The notes under the pieces are model-generated. The model saw only the letters and a program-made list of their open reading frames with translations. It did not search any database and was not told where the DNA came from. A stretch of DNA of 64,000 nt from Tethya wilhelma (Eukaryota; Porifera; Demospongiae; Tethyida; Tethyidae), in contig CAXIPT010000010.1 of NCBI GenBank assembly GCA_964030475.1, forward strand, positions 2,900,366-2,964,365, in the 5' to 3' direction. Position numbers and translations under genes: made by a program. Of this stretch, positions 1,427 through 54,671 are shown one piece after another (within the stretch, counting starts at the first letter, position 1; each line of letters begins with the position of its first letter).

Positions 1427-1584
1427 CACACACACACACACACACACACACTCTCACTCACACACTCATAAGCACACGCACTCTCATACATATACACTAA
1501 CACTCATAAAGCACACACACACACACACGCACTCACATACACTCACATTCACTCACAAACAAGCACACACACACACACACACAC
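1427..1584. repeat. CA-rich microsatellite, target of the RAG1-like insertion
   Basis: Impure (CA)n tract. A related CA-rich tract resumes after 6030, so the RAG1-like element sits inside it. This makes the target-site duplication ambiguous. Confidence 0.9.
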
Positions 1585-1611
1585 CACGGGTGTTTCAAAC
1601 CGGCACTTAGT
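1585..1611 (+). repeat. Left terminal repeat of RAG1-like element
   Basis: CACGGGT at 1585-1591, a 12-nt spacer at 1592-1603, then CACTTAGT at 1604-1611. The first three bases CAC match the RSS/Transib heptamer start. Confidence 0.75.
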
Positions 1612-2042
1612 CTTTAATTAGAACATTACGGTACACGTAATTAATATTCATAGCACTTAGCAACGTAAACTCATTACCGCATCAAGTGGTTGCTATATAT
1701 ACTTGTGATTGTCAGTACCATTTACAGTCAAAACAATGTTCTAAAAATAACAAATAACCTTCCTATACTACAACTAGCGAGCGTGCGCAGTTACAGCGCG
1801 CATAGTAAACAATTGCGCACGGTGGACAGCTGCACTGCTTTTACAAATCTTTTGAACAGCACATCCTCTTTTGTGGTGTCTTGGGTTTCCAGCAGTTTTC
1901 TTTGATCTGAATTCAGCATTACCAGATTGAACCAATGTAAGTGGATAAAAAAAATGTACATAAACAATTACACTTATTTTTTGCAAGGAATTGTACCTAC
2001 TCAAAAAACCGCGAATAATTTAATGTTTTAAAACCATGCCAG
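1612..2042 (+). promoter_or_regulatory. 5' noncoding region of RAG1-like element
   Basis: No convincing coding sequence. The short open frames here have no recognisable motif. It contains a second GCACTTAGCAACGTA block at about 1650, and the same 15-mer recurs near 61091. The promoter presumably lies here, but I see no clear TATA box. Confidence 0.35.
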
Positions 2043-5000
2043 ATGGCAGAATCACCAGAGAGTGTCCATCAAAGGAGACTAGAGACATTGTGCAGGGTGT
2101 GTGGGCAGAATATGAAGTACAGCAAGACTGTGTATCTTTGCAGCAACCACGAAGATGACCTGTTATCTGTGTTCCACCTTGACACAACTGGTGATACTGC
2201 TACAGTTCATCCTCGTCATTTCTGTGCGAGGTGCCGAAGTGTCCTGTACAAAGCTAAGAAAGCAGTCGAGAAAGGAAAAGTGTACATACATAGTGTAGAT
2301 CCACATCAGTGGGTTGAACATGACTTAACTGATTGTACTGTCTGTATTCATTCTGTGGGAGGTAGACCGAAGAAACAGAGGAAAAATAGAGGTCGACCAA
2401 GTTCTACTAGTAACCACAGCGCCATCAATGATATTATGAAATGCTCACCACCTAGCTTCTTTCCTAGCAATGGTGATAACCAATCACCATATGCTATTCC
2501 CCAATCATCTGGACTGTGTTGTGAAGACGTTGAGTGTTGTATATGTACAATGCTTCTAGATCAACCAGTTCAGTTATCCTGTGGACCTGTCGTGTGTCAA
2601 TCTTGTATCTGTAGATTAGTACACACAAGATAATAGACTATTGTACCATATTTATTTAGATAAATTCACATACTTTGGCATGGCTTAGGTGGATTGAATC
2701 ACATGAAGTTGGTAACTGTCCATGTTGTTACCTGGCACACCCCTTTTCCATCCGGAAACCAAGTGATCTCATCCTTTGAGTTCTAGGAAGAGTGCTTGTC
2801 GAGTGCTCCAGTTGTCACCGTATGGTACGCTGTGAAGATTTGATACAACATGTTACCAGTGAGTGTAAGAAAGTCAGCCCATCTGACCTGATGGTGGCAG
2901 ATGTTCTCTCCCAGCCGTTAACAACACCAACCACCTTCACTGAACGACGCCTAGCATCAAATCTGGTGAGACGGATGATGTCAGGAAGCTCACAAGATAC
3001 TGTTCAGATCTCCACTGGTGGACAAGTAAGCCAAGAGTTAGCTATGTAAATAGTCAGGGTTGTGCATTAATTAGAAAACCAAAACATAATGCAGCCACTC
3101 ACATTGGTCCATGTACCAACACCCCGTGTATCATCTGGCACTGCTAGTTCCAGAACTGTACATAGAAGAACTGTTGAACTTCACACAATCCTCACCATCA
3201 TCAGTAAAGATCTAACAGCTCAGGTACAGAATGAAGTGAAGGCCCTCACACGAGAGGAACGACAAGAGCTCTTGACCAGTGTTGGTATCACCATTGATAT
3301 CCCTCCAGAGCAAGGATTAGCTATGAAGGCAGATCTGGCTATACCTTGGAACAAGCTGTGTACAATACGGAGGTACATTATACATTTAAATACCTTATAA
3401 TGTAAGTAAACTTGTTACACTTACCATTCATAATCTGAAAGATGGCTGATGAGCTTCAACATCAATGTGGCAAGTGAGAGTAAATTGCGACGACGAGCAG
3501 AGGACATAGTCACCGACAACATCCAAGGTGAGGCTGCTCCTTTCACCTTTGCACTCAAGGGAGGTGGAGAGGAAATCAGAGGAGCAGCATTGGTATATGT
3601 TTCCTCTCTGAAGGACAAGCTTTTTCAGTTGCTGGAGAAGAATAGCAAGTAAAACACTAGCTAACTACAATAATTATAATAAGCAATAGTTACTGATACT
3701 TTGTCTGTAGCCTGAAGAACTTGACTTGGCACGAGGAAGTGATTCCAAATGACGAGATTTGGATCAAGATTGGTGGTGACAAAGGAGGAAGTTCATTTAA
3801 AATGAACTTCCAAATTGTCAATGTAAAGTCACCAAATAGTGTCAGCAACACTTGTGTCTTCACAGCATTCCAGGCTACGGACACTCTCACCAATTTACAT
3901 GTGGCACTTGATCGCTATAAGGAGCAGCTGGACGCCTTGCAGACAACACAGTGGAGGTTAGCTATGAAAGAAGGAAAATTAGTACATATTAGTTCACATA
4001 CTTACTATATCCTCAACAGAGACCTACAAATTCGTGTGTTTCTGTGTGGGGACTATGAGTTTTTGTGTCGACTCTATGGGATTAGTGGTGCAACTGGTAT
4101 GTCCTGGATTAAAATGTACAAAAAGCATAGAAATGCACAACTTCACTCTTATAGGACGTCACTGCTGCTTATGGTGCCACATTCAGCAAGAGCAACTTAA
4201 GACCACACCTTTGCCAGCAGTAACTGTAAGCCGTACACTTGACACCATCAAGAGTGACAATCAACGACTGCTGGAGGGAACATCAAGAAGGTGAAGGAAT
4301 TTAATAATGCTCTGTTTCCTCCATTTTTCGACATCTCTCTTGACCAGGTATATATAGACAACGAGACAACATATATAGTCTAGACATACTACACTGAGTA
4401 CATGTACCTTGTAGGTTTGTATGCCAGGATTGCATATATCCCTTGGCATATACTACCGCCTCTTTGTCCTTCTGGAGGAGGCTTGTCACCAACTTGACCT
4501 GAAACTGGCAGCTGCTTCCAAGCAAGACGATACTCTACATTCCTTTCGCCTCTATTCTACTGCACTGTTCAAGGTCACTGAACTAGAGGAAGAAAAGACA
4601 CATTACATGGAAGAGGCTACAGCAGCAGAGCAGTTGAGTACCTTTCTTGCTGTGAGAGGGATGGATGCTAGTCAGGTAGAGTATTGTCGGCAGGAGCTTA
4701 GGCGCAAGATTGAGCCCCTGGTTAGTAAAAAAAAAAACACACACACACACGTACACACCATGGTAAAATGTCAGTTACAACAATTCAACTATAGGAAAGT
4801 CAGATACAACACGAGACAGCCACAATTCGAAAGGGATTCACTCTTCAGGAAGGGCCATTCGTGAAGTCCCTTGATGACGCTCTTGCATCTTTCAACGTTG
4901 AAAGGCAGGCTTATTATGGTGGTACCTTTGTAGGGAACCATGTTCACCGAGCTCTGAAGGTACTATACTTCAAAATAGTACTATCAACTTACCAGTTTGT

Positions 5001-5557
5001 TGTTTGACCACAGAAACAAAATATCAAGACACTGTGTACTGCACCAGTGCATGTTGCTCAACAACGGTGCTCAGATCTTGTAGATGAGGCTGAAGCAGTA
5101 CGAGACCGTTTCCAGACTGCCTTTGAGTTTTTTGCTAGCTGTCATAATATATATGATGGAAAGAAACTCACTCCTGAGGCCATAGAGAAGCTCAGTAAGT
5201 TCACAATAATTTCACAACACACAATGTCTAAGTATAATCCAATTACCTTGAATTACAGAAACGAATGTAGCCCAGTTCATGAGGTACTATCGCCAGCATT
5301 TCCCCAACGCTTCTGTAATACCAAAGATGCACATTTTGGAGTGCCATGTGCCAACTTGGATCGAGAAGTGGGGTGTTGGTCTGGGCTTAATGGGAGAGCA
5401 AGGAGCCGAGAGCATACATGCGTCTTTCAACAGCATTGAACGGTCTTATACGAACATGCCAAATAAAGTAGACAGATTGTTGAGGGTCATGCAAGAGCAT
5501 CATCTCCGGCAGGCAACCTTTCTTTGGTGCCTGCTCCAAAGAAAAGGAAAACCCTAG
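2043..5557 (+). pseudogene. RAG1-like transposase, nine exons, lightly damaged
   Basis: Exons inferred from frame and GT/AG: 2043-2630, about 2690-3025, 3095-3372, 3442-3648, 3711-3956, 4020-4096, 4155-4348, about 4416-4725, then 4797 onward with further introns near 4960 and 5193. N-terminus: CRVCG, then HPRHFCARC, then W..H..C.VC, the pattern of the RAG1 N-terminal zinc region. A RING follows (CCICTMLLDQPVQLSCG ... CPCC), then a CSSCH zinc knuckle. Core: Asp at 3778 (IGGDKGG) with a PNS block after it, Asp at 4051 (GDYEFL) followed by SGATGRHCCLWC, and Glu at 5396 or 5408 (GEQGAESIH). These line up in order with human RAG1 D600, D708 with the C727/C730 zinc pair, and E962. Damage: in-frame TGA at 2777, a one-base shift near 4280, and a frame slip before PKKRK at the C-terminus. 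Confidence 0.8.
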
Positions 5558-5991
5558 AGTAACTGTAGAGTACACAGATAATCATTATGATGAATAATCA
5601 ATAATTTACCAGCTACTTCATGTCACCAAAAAATAGTTTCAAAAAATAAGTGTAGCTACAAACTACAACTCACCAGAAACTTCAATCCAAGTAGAAGCGC
5701 TACCACAGTTACTGTTCCCTTGAAAACTGTTTCTTGGGAGCTACAGCCTTTCCAAGCGAATGGGTCACAAGGAGATTGGTTCGCTTCTGGGACTGTATCT
5801 CAGCTTGAGAAGGTGCTAAAAACTCCAAACAAAGACGAACTGGTTCAGCAAGGACGAGCGCTTTTACCCACGTGGTAGCCTACCACGTGTTTTAAACAGT
5901 ATTCATAGAGCGCACGTTTAAAGCTGAGCTTGCAGTTGCTATGGGTCAGTAGGATGCGTTGCTATGCGCAGTTCAATTTTTCGCTTCCGGA
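5558..5991 (+). other. 3' noncoding part of RAG1-like element
   Basis: No gene. A one-base slip in the last codons would extend the protein to end PKKRKTLE, an SV40-type nuclear localisation sequence. The region also holds the palindrome at 5869-5889. Confidence 0.5.
5869..5889. repeat. Perfect palindrome CACGTGGTAG-C-CTACCACGTG
   Basis: Two exact 10-bp arms around one base, each carrying an E-box-like CACGTG. It lies about 140 bp inside the right end of the element and could be a subterminal protein site or a hairpin. Confidence 0.8.
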
Positions 5992-6030
5992 ACTAAGTGG
6001 CACATGGCCATACGGCGCGAAACACCCGTG
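5992..6030 (-). repeat. Right terminal repeat of RAG1-like element
   Basis: Read inward on the minus strand from 6030: CACGGGT, a 24-nt spacer, then CACTTAGT. The terminal 12 bases are identical to the left end. Confidence 0.75.
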
Positions 6031-6070
6031 ACACATACACACATTCGCAAACACACACTCACAAACNAAC

Positions 6071-7528: not shown

Positions 7529-8200
7529 ACACACAAAGTGAGTCAGCTAGTTGCACTCATGTATCAGCTGTTCTTCATGCTCTTTCAAGCCTCCATCCTT
7601 CATCATTCAATCTCAAGCCTAATGTGCACCTGCTGAAGAATGTGCCGAAGATGAGATTCCAGTCAACTCACTAGCTTGTCAGTGGAAGCCACCAAAGAAA
7701 CGTAAACACAGGTCAATGCTTATGTCAGAAGCTGTCTTCCAGAAACACGATTTCTGTAAGCCTGAGAAAAGAATCATGAAACCAATTGAAGATTTTGATC
7801 CCAGACCACCCGAGTTTAGAGGAACAGCTAAAGACCACCTACTTGACTTGTTACGCAAGTTGAAAGGAGAACAACTTTGTATTTCTCTGTTGCTTGATAG
7901 CACCTGCTGTTACTGGGATGATTCTGTCTCCATTGATCAAAGTGTAGCTCCCAGTATTCCTGATTACAGTTCATTGCGTGACACAATTAAAATAGTTTGG
8001 AAGTTACAGAAGATCAAGCTCGACACATTGAGCAGAACACTAGCGAACAGAGAAACTCCTCACTCTGGTACTCAGTCAGAGATATCGTATAACAGCTTCG
8101 AATTTTGGATCAGTTCTCTCAAGAAAAGATAGCACTCCTCCAGATAGTTTGGTTTTGAGAATCATCAGACCAAGAATGTTCTCAACAGTTGCTACAGAAT
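6945..8200 (+). pseudogene. SWIM zinc-finger/YqaJ exonuclease gene, second copy, broken
   Basis: Segments in order: 6945-7052 reads KKYISLAEVGQQVARPGPP, matching the minus-strand gene at 61384-61843. 7053-7123 is inverted relative to that copy. 7185-7428 leads into CECTAG, half of a SWIM CxCx(n)CxH finger. An intron with a CA microsatellite runs 7429-7537. ASCTHVSA completes the SWIM finger. 7716-8132 (138 codons) is the linker before the nuclease domain and is near-identical to window positions 1-354. A frame change lies near 7640. The gene stops at TEYG, where a MITE has inserted; the copy at 355 continues uninterrupted into the nuclease domain. SWIM fingers bind nucleic acid or protein, and YqaJ is a 5'-3' exonuclease family. 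The combined role is not known to me. Confidence 0.7.
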
Positions 8201-8391
8201 ATGGGAAAACAAGTGAAAAAAACATTGGAAATGTAATGAGACATAGGAATGGCCAAATCGTAAAAAAGAAAGCAAACAAGATTGAATAGCTGTTTGAGTG
8301 TGTGCAGAATCATTCCTGTGTGGGCTGCATGTAGTACTCTCTTTCCATGTTGAGTCCCTAATTTTGCCCATAGGAATAATTCTTTACACAT
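8201..8391 (+). mobile_element. Family A fold-back MITE inserted in YqaJ gene, cut short
   Basis: Begins with the conserved CATTGGAAATGTAATGAGAC and contains AGGAATGGCCAAATCGTAAA, like the complete copy at 25138-25408. The second arm is missing: the sequence changes at the N at 8392. Confidence 0.75.
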
Positions 8392-36149: not shown

Positions 36150-36992
36150 TTAAGTAAACAATCGACGATTCTTTGCTCTTGACCAACGACGAGCAACTTC
36201 TCTGAAATCAAAATCATTTGAATCAATACCTTCTATACGAATCCTTAGTAGCCTGTCTAGGGTCTGAGTGTTCATTCTATTTCTTAAATCAGTTTTGACC
36301 CTCTTCATTGTACTAAAACACCGTTCACAATCAGTGGTTGAGACTGGCAGGACCAAAGCATGGACAATTAGCTTAGAAACCAGGGGGAAAAGATCAGAAA
36401 TTGTTCCTGCACTCAATACTTCTTTTGCCAGTTCTTGTAAAGTTGCACAAGATTTTAGCTTGGCATGATTCTTAATAAAGGAGGTGAATTGCTCATATTC
36501 ATTAATGCAAGCAGCCTTGTAGATTCCCATTAGCCCATCCTCTTTATAATGATCTAATAGAATCTCCAGATGTTCATTGGCAACTCCTTGTCCCAACAAC
36601 CCTGCTGGATCAAATATACTGAATGCTTCTAGTGTATCCACCTGAGGAAATCTTTCCTCCAGATTCTCGACTACGTTTGCAATGAATTTCTGGCGTATGT
36701 TACTTTCAAACCTTTCTGGCTCATTCGTACGAGTGAGAACTAATTCCTGTTCTAACTGTTCGTCATCTTCATCTCCTGATTCTTCAACTGATGACTGAGA
36801 TCCTGAATCTGATTGACTCAGCTCTGACACACTTTTAGATGTCTTAGCTATCATCTGGTTCACTTTAGCCTGAAAGTCATCTGCTGTTTCTTCTTTCATT
36901 TTCTGTAATGTGTCTTTAGTTGATTTAAGAAGTGGAGAAATAACAGTGAGGTCAATAGAAGACCGCTGAAATGCCAAAGAAAGTCGATTCAC
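36150..36992 (-). CDS. hAT transposase C-terminal exon (280 codons, open)
   Basis: An unbroken frame ends with VLPVSTTDCERCFSTMKRVK then TDLRNRMNTQTLDRLLRIRI, the hAT C-terminal dimerisation block carrying the catalytic Glu (D-C-E-R). An acidic, Ser-rich linker (SQSSVEESGDEDDEQLEQE) lies upstream. The first 30 or so residues abut the N at 36999, beyond which no hAT coding continues, so the 5' part is missing or misassembled. Among the hAT remnants here it is the best preserved, and it differs from the 44.1-46.2 kb copy (VLPVTTATVERTFSTMKLIK). Confidence 0.75.
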   Translation of the reverse strand: MNRLSLAFQRSSIDLTVISPLLKSTKDTLQKMKEETADDFQAKVNQMIAKTSKSVSELSQSDSGSQSSVEESGDEDDEQLEQELVLTRTNEPERFESNIRQKFIANVVENLEERFPQVDTLEAFSIFDPAGLLGQGVANEHLEILLDHYKEDGLMGIYKAACINEYEQFTSFIKNHAKLKSCATLQELAKEVLSAGTISDLFPLVSKLIVHALVLPVSTTDCERCFSTMKRVKTDLRNRMNTQTLDRLLRIRIEGIDSNDFDFREVARRWSRAKNRRLFT

Positions 36993-36998
36993 AGATGA

Positions 36999-37377
36999 NA
37001 TACGTGGTGTGTTAGTAAGGCCCCTTTACCTCTTTGAAATGCAATAATGTGGAATCCCAAACACTCATACTGGATTCCCTGAGAGCACTTGGTAACATGC
37101 AAGGAGCACTTATTTTGCAACACTTACTATTGACCTCCCTTTTCTGGAAGATTTAGCTAAACAAAAGTCAAAAAAACTAGTGACCTACCTCTGCAAGAAT
37201 CTCTCCACTCTTTTCAGCGCCAGCTTTGGGTCAGAACCTTTCTGTTCAAAAAGTGCACGCTCGGCATTGTAATATTGTTTTTCGGTTAATTAGAACAAGA
37301 ACGGTTACTGTGCGGTCCAAGCGGCAAGTGGTGCAGCACCTCAAGTAAGCGATTGTAAGAGCTCAAATTTGGAGAAA
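36999..37377. other. Spacer, no gene seen
   Basis: Sequence changes character at the N. No coding motif. Lies 3' of the DDE gene below. Confidence 0.4.
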
Positions 37378-47464: not shown

Positions 47465-48977
47465 AACATTGACAAATCTGTCTTACGGCGCACAGCAAAC
47501 ATGTGTCGGCAAGGTAGACACATTGTTTTCCAGAAAGTACATTGGCAATTGTTAGCACTAACTATAAGAGTACCAGCAGATGATGAAACAGAGAAATTCT
47601 CACCATGATCTTCAAATTTAGTCACCTCTCTACTTAAAATCATCTGTTTTTCCACAAACTTAAATGCATAAGGAGTCAACAGATCGGCATATTTGTTTAT
47701 CGATAGATCATTGGATTCGGAGGTCAATCGTTTCTTTACCATTGTCATTAGTGTAGTACGATCTCTTTCATTTCTCAGGCATGCAAGAACAGCAAAAAAA
47801 CTGGTCAATAAATTTAGCCAGAGAAGCATACCTTTATTTTTGAATTGATGCATTCTAGACAATTGTTTGTACTCTCTCCCATAGTGAAATTAGCTCCTTT
47901 GAAACATTCCACCCATTGGTGACAAATTGGGTGCCAGTTGTCATTGAAATATTGGATGACAGCTTTCAATCCAGATTCTTGTAGTGATTGGTAGTTCTCT
48001 GTGTATTCTGCTTCTGATTTTGAGTATACTAAGTTAGTCATTAGTTCTAGTGCATGGTCACGCTCACCAGGACGCAATCCTAGTTTCTCGCATGTTATTT
48101 CTCGTCTCATACTTCTCAGGGTATGAAATAGACAGATTAGTAATGATGCTGATGGAAATTCTTTCTGAAAGACAGCCTGCTCAGTGAAATCTTTATCTGT
48201 CATCACCACTTTGGTTTTCGACCAAAGAGGGTTGACTTTCTTAAAAGCTTGAACCATTCTTGCTATTGCTTCTTCTGTTTCCAACACTGTCAAAAAGACT
48301 CCCACAATTTCACTTTGCCCATTACTGTCGATAACCAGTATCAAATACAGAGGCATACGTAGCTCATTTAATTTGTATGTAGCATCTACCATTAGAACTT
48401 CCGGATAAGCTGAAAAGTTTGTTTTCATTACTCCATCTTGAAAGAAGAGGCCTGTGAAAGTTGACGTGTCATCAGTGAACACATCCACAGTTGAATCTGC
48501 GTAGAGGAAAATATTTTCACTAGTATAGCAATTATATACTTGTACATAATTATGTTACACGTTTTTCTTACCATTGATCGATTGCAGCCTACTAGTAAGT
48601 GCCTTCAGGTCATTCTTATCAGAACGTTCACGGATGCTTGACTGGACATTACTTAGATCTTTCAGGGTAACAATTTTCCTAGTTTTGCCACTAAGATGCT
48701 GCTGTAGTAACTTTTTATCTACTTTCATGTTAAGGTAATTCTCGGCTTCTTTCTGTTCACTATTAGTAAGATGCCGCTGACAAGGCAGATGATTGTAAAT
48801 ATCCTGTGAACAGTAAAAGTATATAGGTATATTCATAAGATAATAGCAATAGACTTTTAGAAACAACTCACTTTGCTTATTTCATGATTATGTTCACATA
48901 CTTCTGTCACTCTAAGAGACTGGCCATCTTCACTGAGAGTTAGTTTAATACCAGCAGTACAACTTTGTTTCCAAGTG

Positions 48978-52523: not shown

Positions 52524-53033
52524 TTATGATACAATTCCTCGAACTACTTTGAAGTGATCACCAGTATGGTAAACAAATATGGCACGATCTGAATCACTCT
52601 CATATGTCCTCAGCGAGGGGTCTACATGGCTAGGAGAGTGAAGCTGCCATGTGGCATTTTGCCTACTGTACGAAAAGATGCGTGTGTTGAGCAAATGTGC
52701 CAGTGCAAACATCTCTACAGCAGTGCCCCACTCTCCCATGTTGGTGTCAGCAAGATACTCATGCACATTATCATAGTTGGCATTTAGGCCAACATAGAAA
52801 CTGGACATGAACAAATCATCGTTTGCTTCCATGTGGGTAGTGATTGCATTTCGTAATGCACTGTATTGAGTCTGAGATCCAGTAATGACATGAGAAAAGG
52901 CCCTAAAGAGACAATTCCCATCCCCCCAAGTGTTAAGAAGACTTCTAGTGTCAGGGTGTCTCAGAGCAACAGTTGGACCACCTGGTGTGATAGTACTTGC
53001 ACGCCTGAATATCAACCCCAGTTGGGCACACAC
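52524..53033 (-). CDS. OTU-type cysteine protease domain of a Helitron
   Basis: A 169-codon open frame. It has the OTU nucleophile motif WGDGNCLFRAFSHVITG, with the Asp two residues before the Cys block and Cys in GDGNC. The C-terminal histidine region is FVYHTGDHFKVVRG. OTU proteases cleave ubiquitin-type linkages and occur in some animal Helitrons/Helentrons. The preceding residues may belong to an upstream exon or frame; the ORF start at 53033 is not a proven start. It follows the helicase on the same strand with about 100 bp between them. Both expected catalytic residues are intact. Confidence 0.8.
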   Translation of the reverse strand: MCAQLGLIFRRASTITPGGPTVALRHPDTRSLLNTWGDGNCLFRAFSHVITGSQTQYSALRNAITTHMEANDDLFMSSFYVGLNANYDNVHEYLADTNMGEWGTAVEMFALAHLLNTRIFSYSRQNATWQLHSPSHVDPSLRTYESDSDRAIFVYHTGDHFKVVRGIVS

Positions 53034-53140
53034 ACTACGCTGCCAATCTGCATGACAAGATTGTAACTAAAAGGCCACACACCAAGTCTGTTGGGTTCGT
53101 AATCATCACAAGTCCAAACTCTCTTACAGTCACTGTTTTG

Positions 53141-54671
53141 TTAATAGTCGGGACAATTACGCTTTCTACCAGCTATCTGATTGGTGGCCATCTTTACAAT
53201 TTTTCTAGCCTTTGAGGCTATGACCATGCTATCAGCATCAATACCCAGTTTACGCTTTCTACCATATTTAGGCTGGGGTGGTATGGGGTACTGTGGTAGA
53301 TCACTTCTGAACTTATCTCTCAGCCTGTTCACTTCACGTATGCCACACTCACTAACAATAATTGAATTGGGGTGGAATGCTGAGAGGTAAAGACCTGTCA
53401 AGGATTTAACTCGTGACAATGCAACATATGCCATTTCAGGACTGAAAACATCCTCAGAGAGGTCTACTATGGCACATTCTAAAGACAGGCCTTGACATTT
53501 GTGGATAGTAATAGCATATGCCAAAATGAGGGGAAACTGTTTTCTAAACACAAAGAACTTATTCATGACCATACACCTACTTTTCACCCTCTCAACATCG
53601 TAAGGTTTGTCTATTCTATCAAACTTCACTGTAATTGAGGTCATGGACACTTTTGTTACTGTACCAATAGCACCATTTACCAGGCCGGCTTTAGTATCAA
53701 GGTTACGATGGAGCATAACATGAGCACCTACAACAATATTGCAGTCTCTGTTGAGTTTTGCCAAATGCTCAGTAGCCTTCTTAGTCCACTTACGTGTACT
53801 GGATGTCTGATCAATATCATCAGTACACTGCAATGCCACAACTTCAGATGGAAGGCTACGGAGCATTTGTTGGTTCAACTCATCACAAGCTTTTCTAGTA
53901 GGGTACAAACACACAGGTGTTTGGCCAGATTTTTCCAGCTCATGAATCTTATCAACAATTTAAACATTGATTACTCTCCCCTTCAACACGTCAAGTATTG
54001 TGGAAAACCACACCTTACAGATTGCAAAAGCTGACTGTATTGAACATCATTTCTTTGACGCTCATTTATAGTCAACTCATCGTAAACAACTGAATCCCTC
54101 CATATGTTTATAGAGGTTGCACAGCCTAGCCTAAGTGTGAGAGATTTCTGTGCTATTCTTTCAAAAACAGGATTACCATTGACTCGCTGTAATTGGAGCA
54201 CATCTCCAAAAAATAGCATGGTTTTCCCACCAAACCACTGGTCACTGTCAAACAGTTCCTCCAATCTTAAATGTACATAGGGTAAATTGAGAGACGAGAC
54301 CATGGAGATCTTATTGACAATAAAAGCTTTTGTGTTTTAAGGGTGGTCTTAAGCAGTTTGTGGAGGTCTTTTGACAGTGGCCAGTACCCTGCTGTTTTAC
54401 CTTCATGCTCAAAAGGAAGTCTAAAGAGACGGTGTACAGTTACACCACCAACATTGAAAGCAGCTAAACCAGTAGGCGCTGCAATGGCACAAGTACGTTC
54501 AGTTTCGGGCCACAGGGATACTATCATTTTCTTGATAGTTTGAATGAGGAATGACTTCCCTGTCCCCCCTACACCACTAATGAACATGTGGAGTGGTTTC
54601 AAGTCACAATGACATTGGTTATTCTCATGTCTTTGCAAATGCATGAAGTGGGCTTTCACATTTTCATACAC
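53141..54671 (-). pseudogene. PIF1-like helicase of a Helitron
   Basis: Three overlapping frames. 54671-54267 holds Walker A GVGGTGKSFLIQTIKKMI with AAPTGLAAFNVGGVTVHRLF. 54303-53983 has MLFFGDVLQLQRVNG (motif III-like) and ELTINERQRN. 53914-53141 has VCLYPTRKACDELNQQML, NIVVGAHVMLHRNLDTKAGL, VNGAIGTV, and TIHKCQGLSLECAIVDLS with YVALSRVKSLTGLYL. PIF1 helicases are SF1B 5'-3' enzymes; in Helitrons the domain is fused to a HUH nuclease and unwinds DNA during rolling-circle transposition. Two frame changes (near 54285 and 53930-53980) separate the parts, and Walker B is degraded or lost between them. Confidence 0.85.

Follow-up and report, generated by a model that had tools for sequence, protein, structure and literature searches.

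Gene and limits of the element

The stretch analyzed, hereafter the window, comprises 64,000 nucleotides of the genome of the sponge Tethya wilhelma (contig CAXIPT010000010.1, positions 2,900,366 to 2,964,365). It contains a transposable element, most probably of the Chapaev type, bounded by two 12-bp ends and carrying one transposase gene (Table 1). A preliminary description of the window, based on the sequence and its open reading frames, had placed an end-to-end RAG1-like transposon at these coordinates. The limits proved exact. The two terminal 12-mers, CACGGGTGTTTC and GAAACACCCGTG, are perfect inverted matches, and the proposal of a single spliced gene held, with ten inferred introns of 41 to 74 nt. 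The junction between exons 1 and 2 is ambiguous: a 41-nt intron (2619-2659) preserves the frame, whereas an alternative 78-nt intron (2611-2688) gives the RING finger the length found in homologues but breaks the frame. The closest homologues found were from another sponge, Ephydatia muelleri. Inside the ends, 446 nt precede the gene and 461 nt follow it, which is too short for a kelch protein, and there is thus no adjacent RAG2-like gene. The element had been presented as a complete copy, but the gene is not intact: it carries an in-frame stop codon and a frame break near position 4268, both of which had escaped notice.

Table 1. Coordinates of the element and its features in the window
Feature	Position	Strand	Remarks
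Whole Chapaev element	1585..6030	+	4,446 bp; paired 12-bp ends; sister copy L069 with same ends
Left copy of putative 4-bp target duplication, ACAC	1581..1584		Inside AC microsatellite, hence weak in window copy
Gene-start end, outer block CACGGGTGTTTC	1585-1596	+	
Gene-start end, inner block CACTTAGT	1604..1611	+	7 bp inside outer block; 12 bp from first 7 bases
Transposase gene	2043..5557	+	11 inferred exons; GT-AG joins, open frames, homologues
Exon 1	2043-2618 (or 2610)		
Exon 2	2660 (or 2689)-3025		
Exons 3-5	3095-3372, 3442-3648, 3711-3956		
Exons 6-8	4020-4096, 4155-4347, 4415-4720		
Exons 9-11	4795-4959, 5014-5194, 5259-5557		
N-terminal RAG1-type zinc region (Chapa)	2091..2352	+	Pfam PF12560 (RAG1_imp_bd), E 9.4e-13
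RING finger	2535..2740	+	First intron within; TRIM30 RING, E 5.6e-6
In-frame TGA stop	2777..2779	+	Lesion of window copy
First catalytic Asp (GGDKGG)	3778..3780	+	Conserved in Chapaev alignments
Second catalytic Asp (GDYEF)	4051..4053	+	19 residues ahead of C(2)C
C(2)C motif CLWC	4166..4177	+	
Frame break	4268..4275	+	L069 has 7 nt more here
Catalytic Glu (GEQGAES)	5408..5410	+	Downstream of H(4)H motif KMHILECH
Gene-end end, inner block CACTTAGT	5992..5999	-	19 bp inside outer block; 24 bp from first 7 bases
Gene-end end, outer block, read as GAAACACCCGTG	6019-6030	-	
Right copy of putative 4-bp target duplication, ACAC	6031..6034		

Copies in the genome and past mobility

The terminal 12-mer occurred 44 times in the 124.6-Mb assembly, versus 7 times for the reversed control, and was often present at both ends of an element. 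Sister copy L069, on contig C9, is 89 to 91% identical to the window element over the main matched pieces and is flanked by its own 4-bp target duplication, TGCT. Among the loci examined, the duplication was exactly 4 bp in all 17 distinct element sequences for which both ends were found, the microsatellite case of the window included. Two further cases came from directed searches: the TGAT duplication of family F (L091/L085) was found by a search for the duplication itself, and the CCAC duplication of family H (L090/L086) was read by eye after a relaxed end search, one terminal base being changed. Fourteen of the 17 elements are short copies that retain both ends. The target duplications, the many copies, and the short elements establish that these elements were mobile in the past. 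Window positions 5000-6066, which comprise the 3' part of the element and 36 bp of right flank, are 99.9% identical to positions 3704-4770 of L070 (G000:C3); this match is a duplicated insertion (or an assembly duplicate) and not a new insertion. Chapaev DNA of other organisms was sought in viral and genome contig collections, and no relative was confirmed there.

These data also bear on the idea that the gene arose by host domestication of a Chapaev element, in keeping with its spliced structure and with the long open exons of a related family (L089). We consider domestication highly improbable, since element ends flank the gene, the sister copy is bounded by ends and a target duplication of its own, the ends are present in many copies in the genome, and the window gene carries lesions.

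Domain organization of the transposase

Joining of the exons at GT-AG sites gave the RAG1-like order that had been proposed, namely, Chapa, RING, and catalytic core. The N-terminal part also matched RAG1 chain 21wb_A (E = 1.3e-6), and the RING region matched TRAF6 (E = 0.019) and RAG1 1rmd (E = 0.032). The motifs GGDKGG, GDYEFL, C(2)C, H(4)H, and GEQGAES were all found where they had been reported. Between the second Asp and the Glu, the C(2)C, LH, and H(4)H motifs appear as CLWC, GLHI, and KMHILECH. The distance from the second Asp to the first Cys of C(2)C, previously given for RAG1 as about 20 residues, is 19 in the window, in six of six homologues, and in four of four vertebrate RAG1 proteins examined, one homologue having an additional C(2)C at 16 residues. 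In the comparison with the nonamer-binding domain, hhalign aligned a collinear GG-x-P with RAG1. A structural model of window exon 3 was of low confidence (pTM, the predicted template modeling score, 0.32) and gave no useful match. The single protein thus has a RAG1 N-terminal zinc region, a RING finger, a basic helical stretch, and a DDE core of predicted RAG1/Transib fold that contains the three motifs C(2)C, LH, and H(4)H.

Relationship of the core to RAG1 and family assignment

The proposal that the core itself is homologous to RAG1 was upheld by predicted structure and not by the core-only sequence profile. The predicted core fold, obtained from a model of a homologue, is of the RAG1 DDE type: its best structural matches were RAG1, which ranked first, and Transib, with no unrelated superfamily. 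In contrast, the core-only hhalign comparison with vertebrate RAG1 gave E values of 0.08 to 0.18, no better than with column-shuffled RAG1, the RAG1 profile being a shallow set of 12 vertebrate proteins of 120 listed (274 found). The kinship of the core with RAG1 is therefore carried by predicted structure and motif spacing. Whole-protein profiles matched RAG1 with E values of 7.3e-17 and 1.5e-22; since the core-only comparison was not significant, we infer that these matches come mainly from the N-terminal half. A Pfam search of the window protein returned no model of the RAG1 core at E ≤ 1, and a phmmer search of the core against the PDB gave five matches at E ≤ 10, neither RAG1 nor Transib among them.

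The core matched DUF1280 (PF06918; E = 4.8e-15; 56.2 bits for a cut-off of 25), which is described as the Chapaev transposase and placed with RAG1 in one RNase H-like clade (PMC3985635). The DUF1280-type core, a target duplication in the range of 3 to 4 bp (here exactly 4 bp), the 5'-CAC...GTG-3' ends (with the exception of one family H copy, whose first base is changed), and the C(2)C, LH, and H(4)H motifs are those of Chapaev elements other than Chapaev3 (hallmarks from PMC4079192). The 3-bp TWA duplication of Chapaev3 was not found, the 4-bp duplications being of varied sequence. Neither the 5-bp duplication and core-only transposase of Transib nor the 5-bp duplication, adjacent RAG2-like gene, and RAG1 core sequence profile of RAG-like (RAGL) transposons was found. 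Thus, the window element is very probably a defective copy of an autonomous animal Chapaev cut-and-paste DNA transposon (CMC group).

Descent from the RAG1L/RAG2L transposon lineage (ProtoRAG/TransibSU) followed by loss of RAG2L would also account for the RAG1-like succession of zinc region, RING, and core and for RAG1 as the top structural match. Such a descent is very improbable: the duplications are of 4 and not 5 bp in 17 of 17 elements, the core is of the DUF1280 type with no RAG1 core model, and its match to the shallow, vertebrate-only RAG1 profile was not significant.

Homology of the core to RAG1, and not of the N terminus alone as first reported for N-RAG-TP-type elements, had been put forward for this element. 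Both the type of element and its domain layout are known already: the identity of DUF1280 as the Chapaev transposase, its clade with RAG1, and the combination of Chapa and RING are in print (PMC3985635, PMC4411706), and Chapa followed by RING, as in RAG1, is reported for two Chapaev subgroups (PMC4411706). By that 2015 account, Chapa and RING are absent from transposable elements outside the Transib superfamily, in which it includes Chapaev.

A putative two-block signal at the ends

Most ends carry, besides the outer 12-mer, an inner block, (C/A)A(C/T)TTAGT. In a sample of 53 distinct ends from the loci examined, the inner motif was present within 50 bp in 44, at 7 (16 ends), 8 (3), 12 (1), 19 (14), or 20 bp (10) from the outer block. 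The other nine comprised four near-matches (L014, L043, L085, and L023), one shortened end (L081), and four ends (L044, L045, L057, and L061) that look like chance 12-mers. The gene-start spacing was 7 bp in seven of eight families (A, B, C, E, F, G, and H) and 8 bp in family D; the gene-end spacing was 19 bp in A, C, E, F, and I, 20 bp in B and D, and 12 bp in H. Consequently, the two ends differ by 12 to 13 bp in six of the seven two-ended families and by 5 bp in one. Counted from the first seven bases, the spacings are 12 to 13 and 24 to 25 bp (12/17 in H).

The proteins of families F, G, H, and I are about 36 to 69% identical to that of the window over matched exons (76% for one 25-residue piece), and the end pattern is therefore old. 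Family G (L089; G000:C31:23500-30000, minus strand) is a diverged Chapaev family, 36 to 59% identical per exon, with a second DUF1280 match about 7.5 kb away; its gene-start end was found and its other end was sought but not found. Only the gene-end end of family I was found, twice (L008 and L095). Ends were not identified for family L006 (L092 and L093), and none lay within the loci examined for L004 and L007, whose flanks fall outside.

The inner block may be a functionless remnant of a once longer inverted repeat that acquired a 12-bp indel, a possibility that we rate a little below even. The copies are related, and no transposase belonging to families B to E was seen (tblastn of L082 gave no exon match, and C to E were encountered only as elements of about 1.4 kb). 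Families B to E are weak independent samples, since they may have been moved by relatives. Of the three two-ended families with their own transposase, A and F fit the unequal spacing, and H (L086/L090; G000:C3:7025953-7030364) does not, its spacing being 7/12 and not 7/19, with the first base altered at one end; the missing second end of family G points the same way. Conservation argues against a remnant. Across families, with H excluded and I also absent, identity was 0.87 to 0.89 in the outer block, 0.76 to 0.85 in the inner 8 bp, and 0.38 to 0.44 in the spacer; it was 47 to 51% in the 12 bp past the inner block. Within families, again excluding H, the two ends share 75 to 100% of the inner block and 17 to 33% of the next 12 bp. 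Within families A to F, the left inner block resembles the right one more closely than in re-dealt pairs, 8 of 720 permutations being as good (4 of 120 without F), although the families are not independent.

A functional two-block signal with unequal spacing (12 to 13 and 24 to 25 bp) would mean that short/long pairing predates RAG2 and RAGL transposons and was already present in the ancestor shared by Chapaev and Transib/RAG1. We advance this tentatively and regard the full proposal as unlikely. A search of the open-licence literature, with Repbase Reports outside its scope, found no description of unequal two-block Chapaev ends. 

In the mechanism that we envisage, the transposase would bind each end through the outer block CACGGGTGTTTC and the inner block, set in most families at the spacings above; one short-spaced end would pair with one long-spaced end, as in the 12/23 rule of antibody-gene assembly. 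A nick 5' of CAC would be followed by excision, probably by way of hairpins on the flanks, the route taken by RAG and Transib, and by insertion with a 4-bp stagger; copies of 1.35 to 1.43 kb would be mobilized in trans. The structure of Transib ends was reportedly described by Kapitonov and Jurka in 2005. The cleavage and pairing steps are proposed by kinship with RAG and Transib. ProtoRAG ends have a TR1-27/31-TR5 layout, and asymmetric pairs are the most efficient (PMC8289069), which makes asymmetric pairing plausible here.

Several points weigh against the overall interpretation. The window's own target duplication sits within a microsatellite and its transposase gene is broken; the core-only profile comparison with RAG1 was not significant, so that the predicted kinship depends on motif spacing and on the structural model of a homologue; and the hairpin and synapsis steps are borrowed from relatives. 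We nevertheless favor a decayed Chapaev copy whose transposase shares zinc modules and a predicted core fold with RAG1 and whose spaced two-block ends resemble the RAG1 signal. If the unequal-spacing signal is functional, the basis of the 12/23 rule would be older than RAG2 and RAGL transposons. With its several Chapaev families, its short copies of sharp limits, and its clear target duplications, the genome offers a RAG2-free system for testing where the parts of RAG1 and its spaced recognition signal came from.

Surroundings of the element

A repeat of about 93% identity flanks the element on both sides (1-385 and 7834-8206), and the region that follows the left repeat copy (about 450-760) looks YqaJ-like by eye. 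On the minus strand, the window also contains a hAT C-terminal dimerization domain (36150-37025; Pfam E = 4.5e-9), a ZSWIM1-3 RNase H-like/MULE transposase domain (47814-48554; Pfam E = 2.8e-41 and 9.8e-20), and adjoining OTU protease and Pif1 2B-domain frames (52524-53959), presumably arranged as in Helitron/Helentron elements.

Comparison with known systems

The window element shares the Chapa zinc region, RING, DUF1280 DDE core, CAC...GTG ends, and 4-bp target duplication with the Chapaev elements described in PMC4411706, and no difference from that description was established. Chapaev3 has CMC-type core motifs and CAC ends in common with it but is reported to form 3-bp TWA duplications (PMC4079192) instead of 4-bp duplications. 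Target duplications of Transib and RAG are given as 5 bp (PMC8355894, PMC4411706, PMC8289069), and HzTransib, by these accounts, lacks the N-terminal zinc and RING modules (PMC4411706, PMC8355894). N-RAG-TP of Aplysia is likewise a transposon with a RAG1-type N terminus; its likeness to RAG1, compared here by description and not by sequence, is N-terminal only according to PMC8355894. Vertebrate RAG1 and ProtoRAG differ from the window element by the 5-bp duplication, the RAG2 partner, and other inner blocks and spacings (27/31 in ProtoRAG), and the window core has no profile match to them; they share with it the domain order, the predicted core fold, and two-block asymmetric ends, and RAG1 shares the 19-residue distance between the second Asp and C(2)C.
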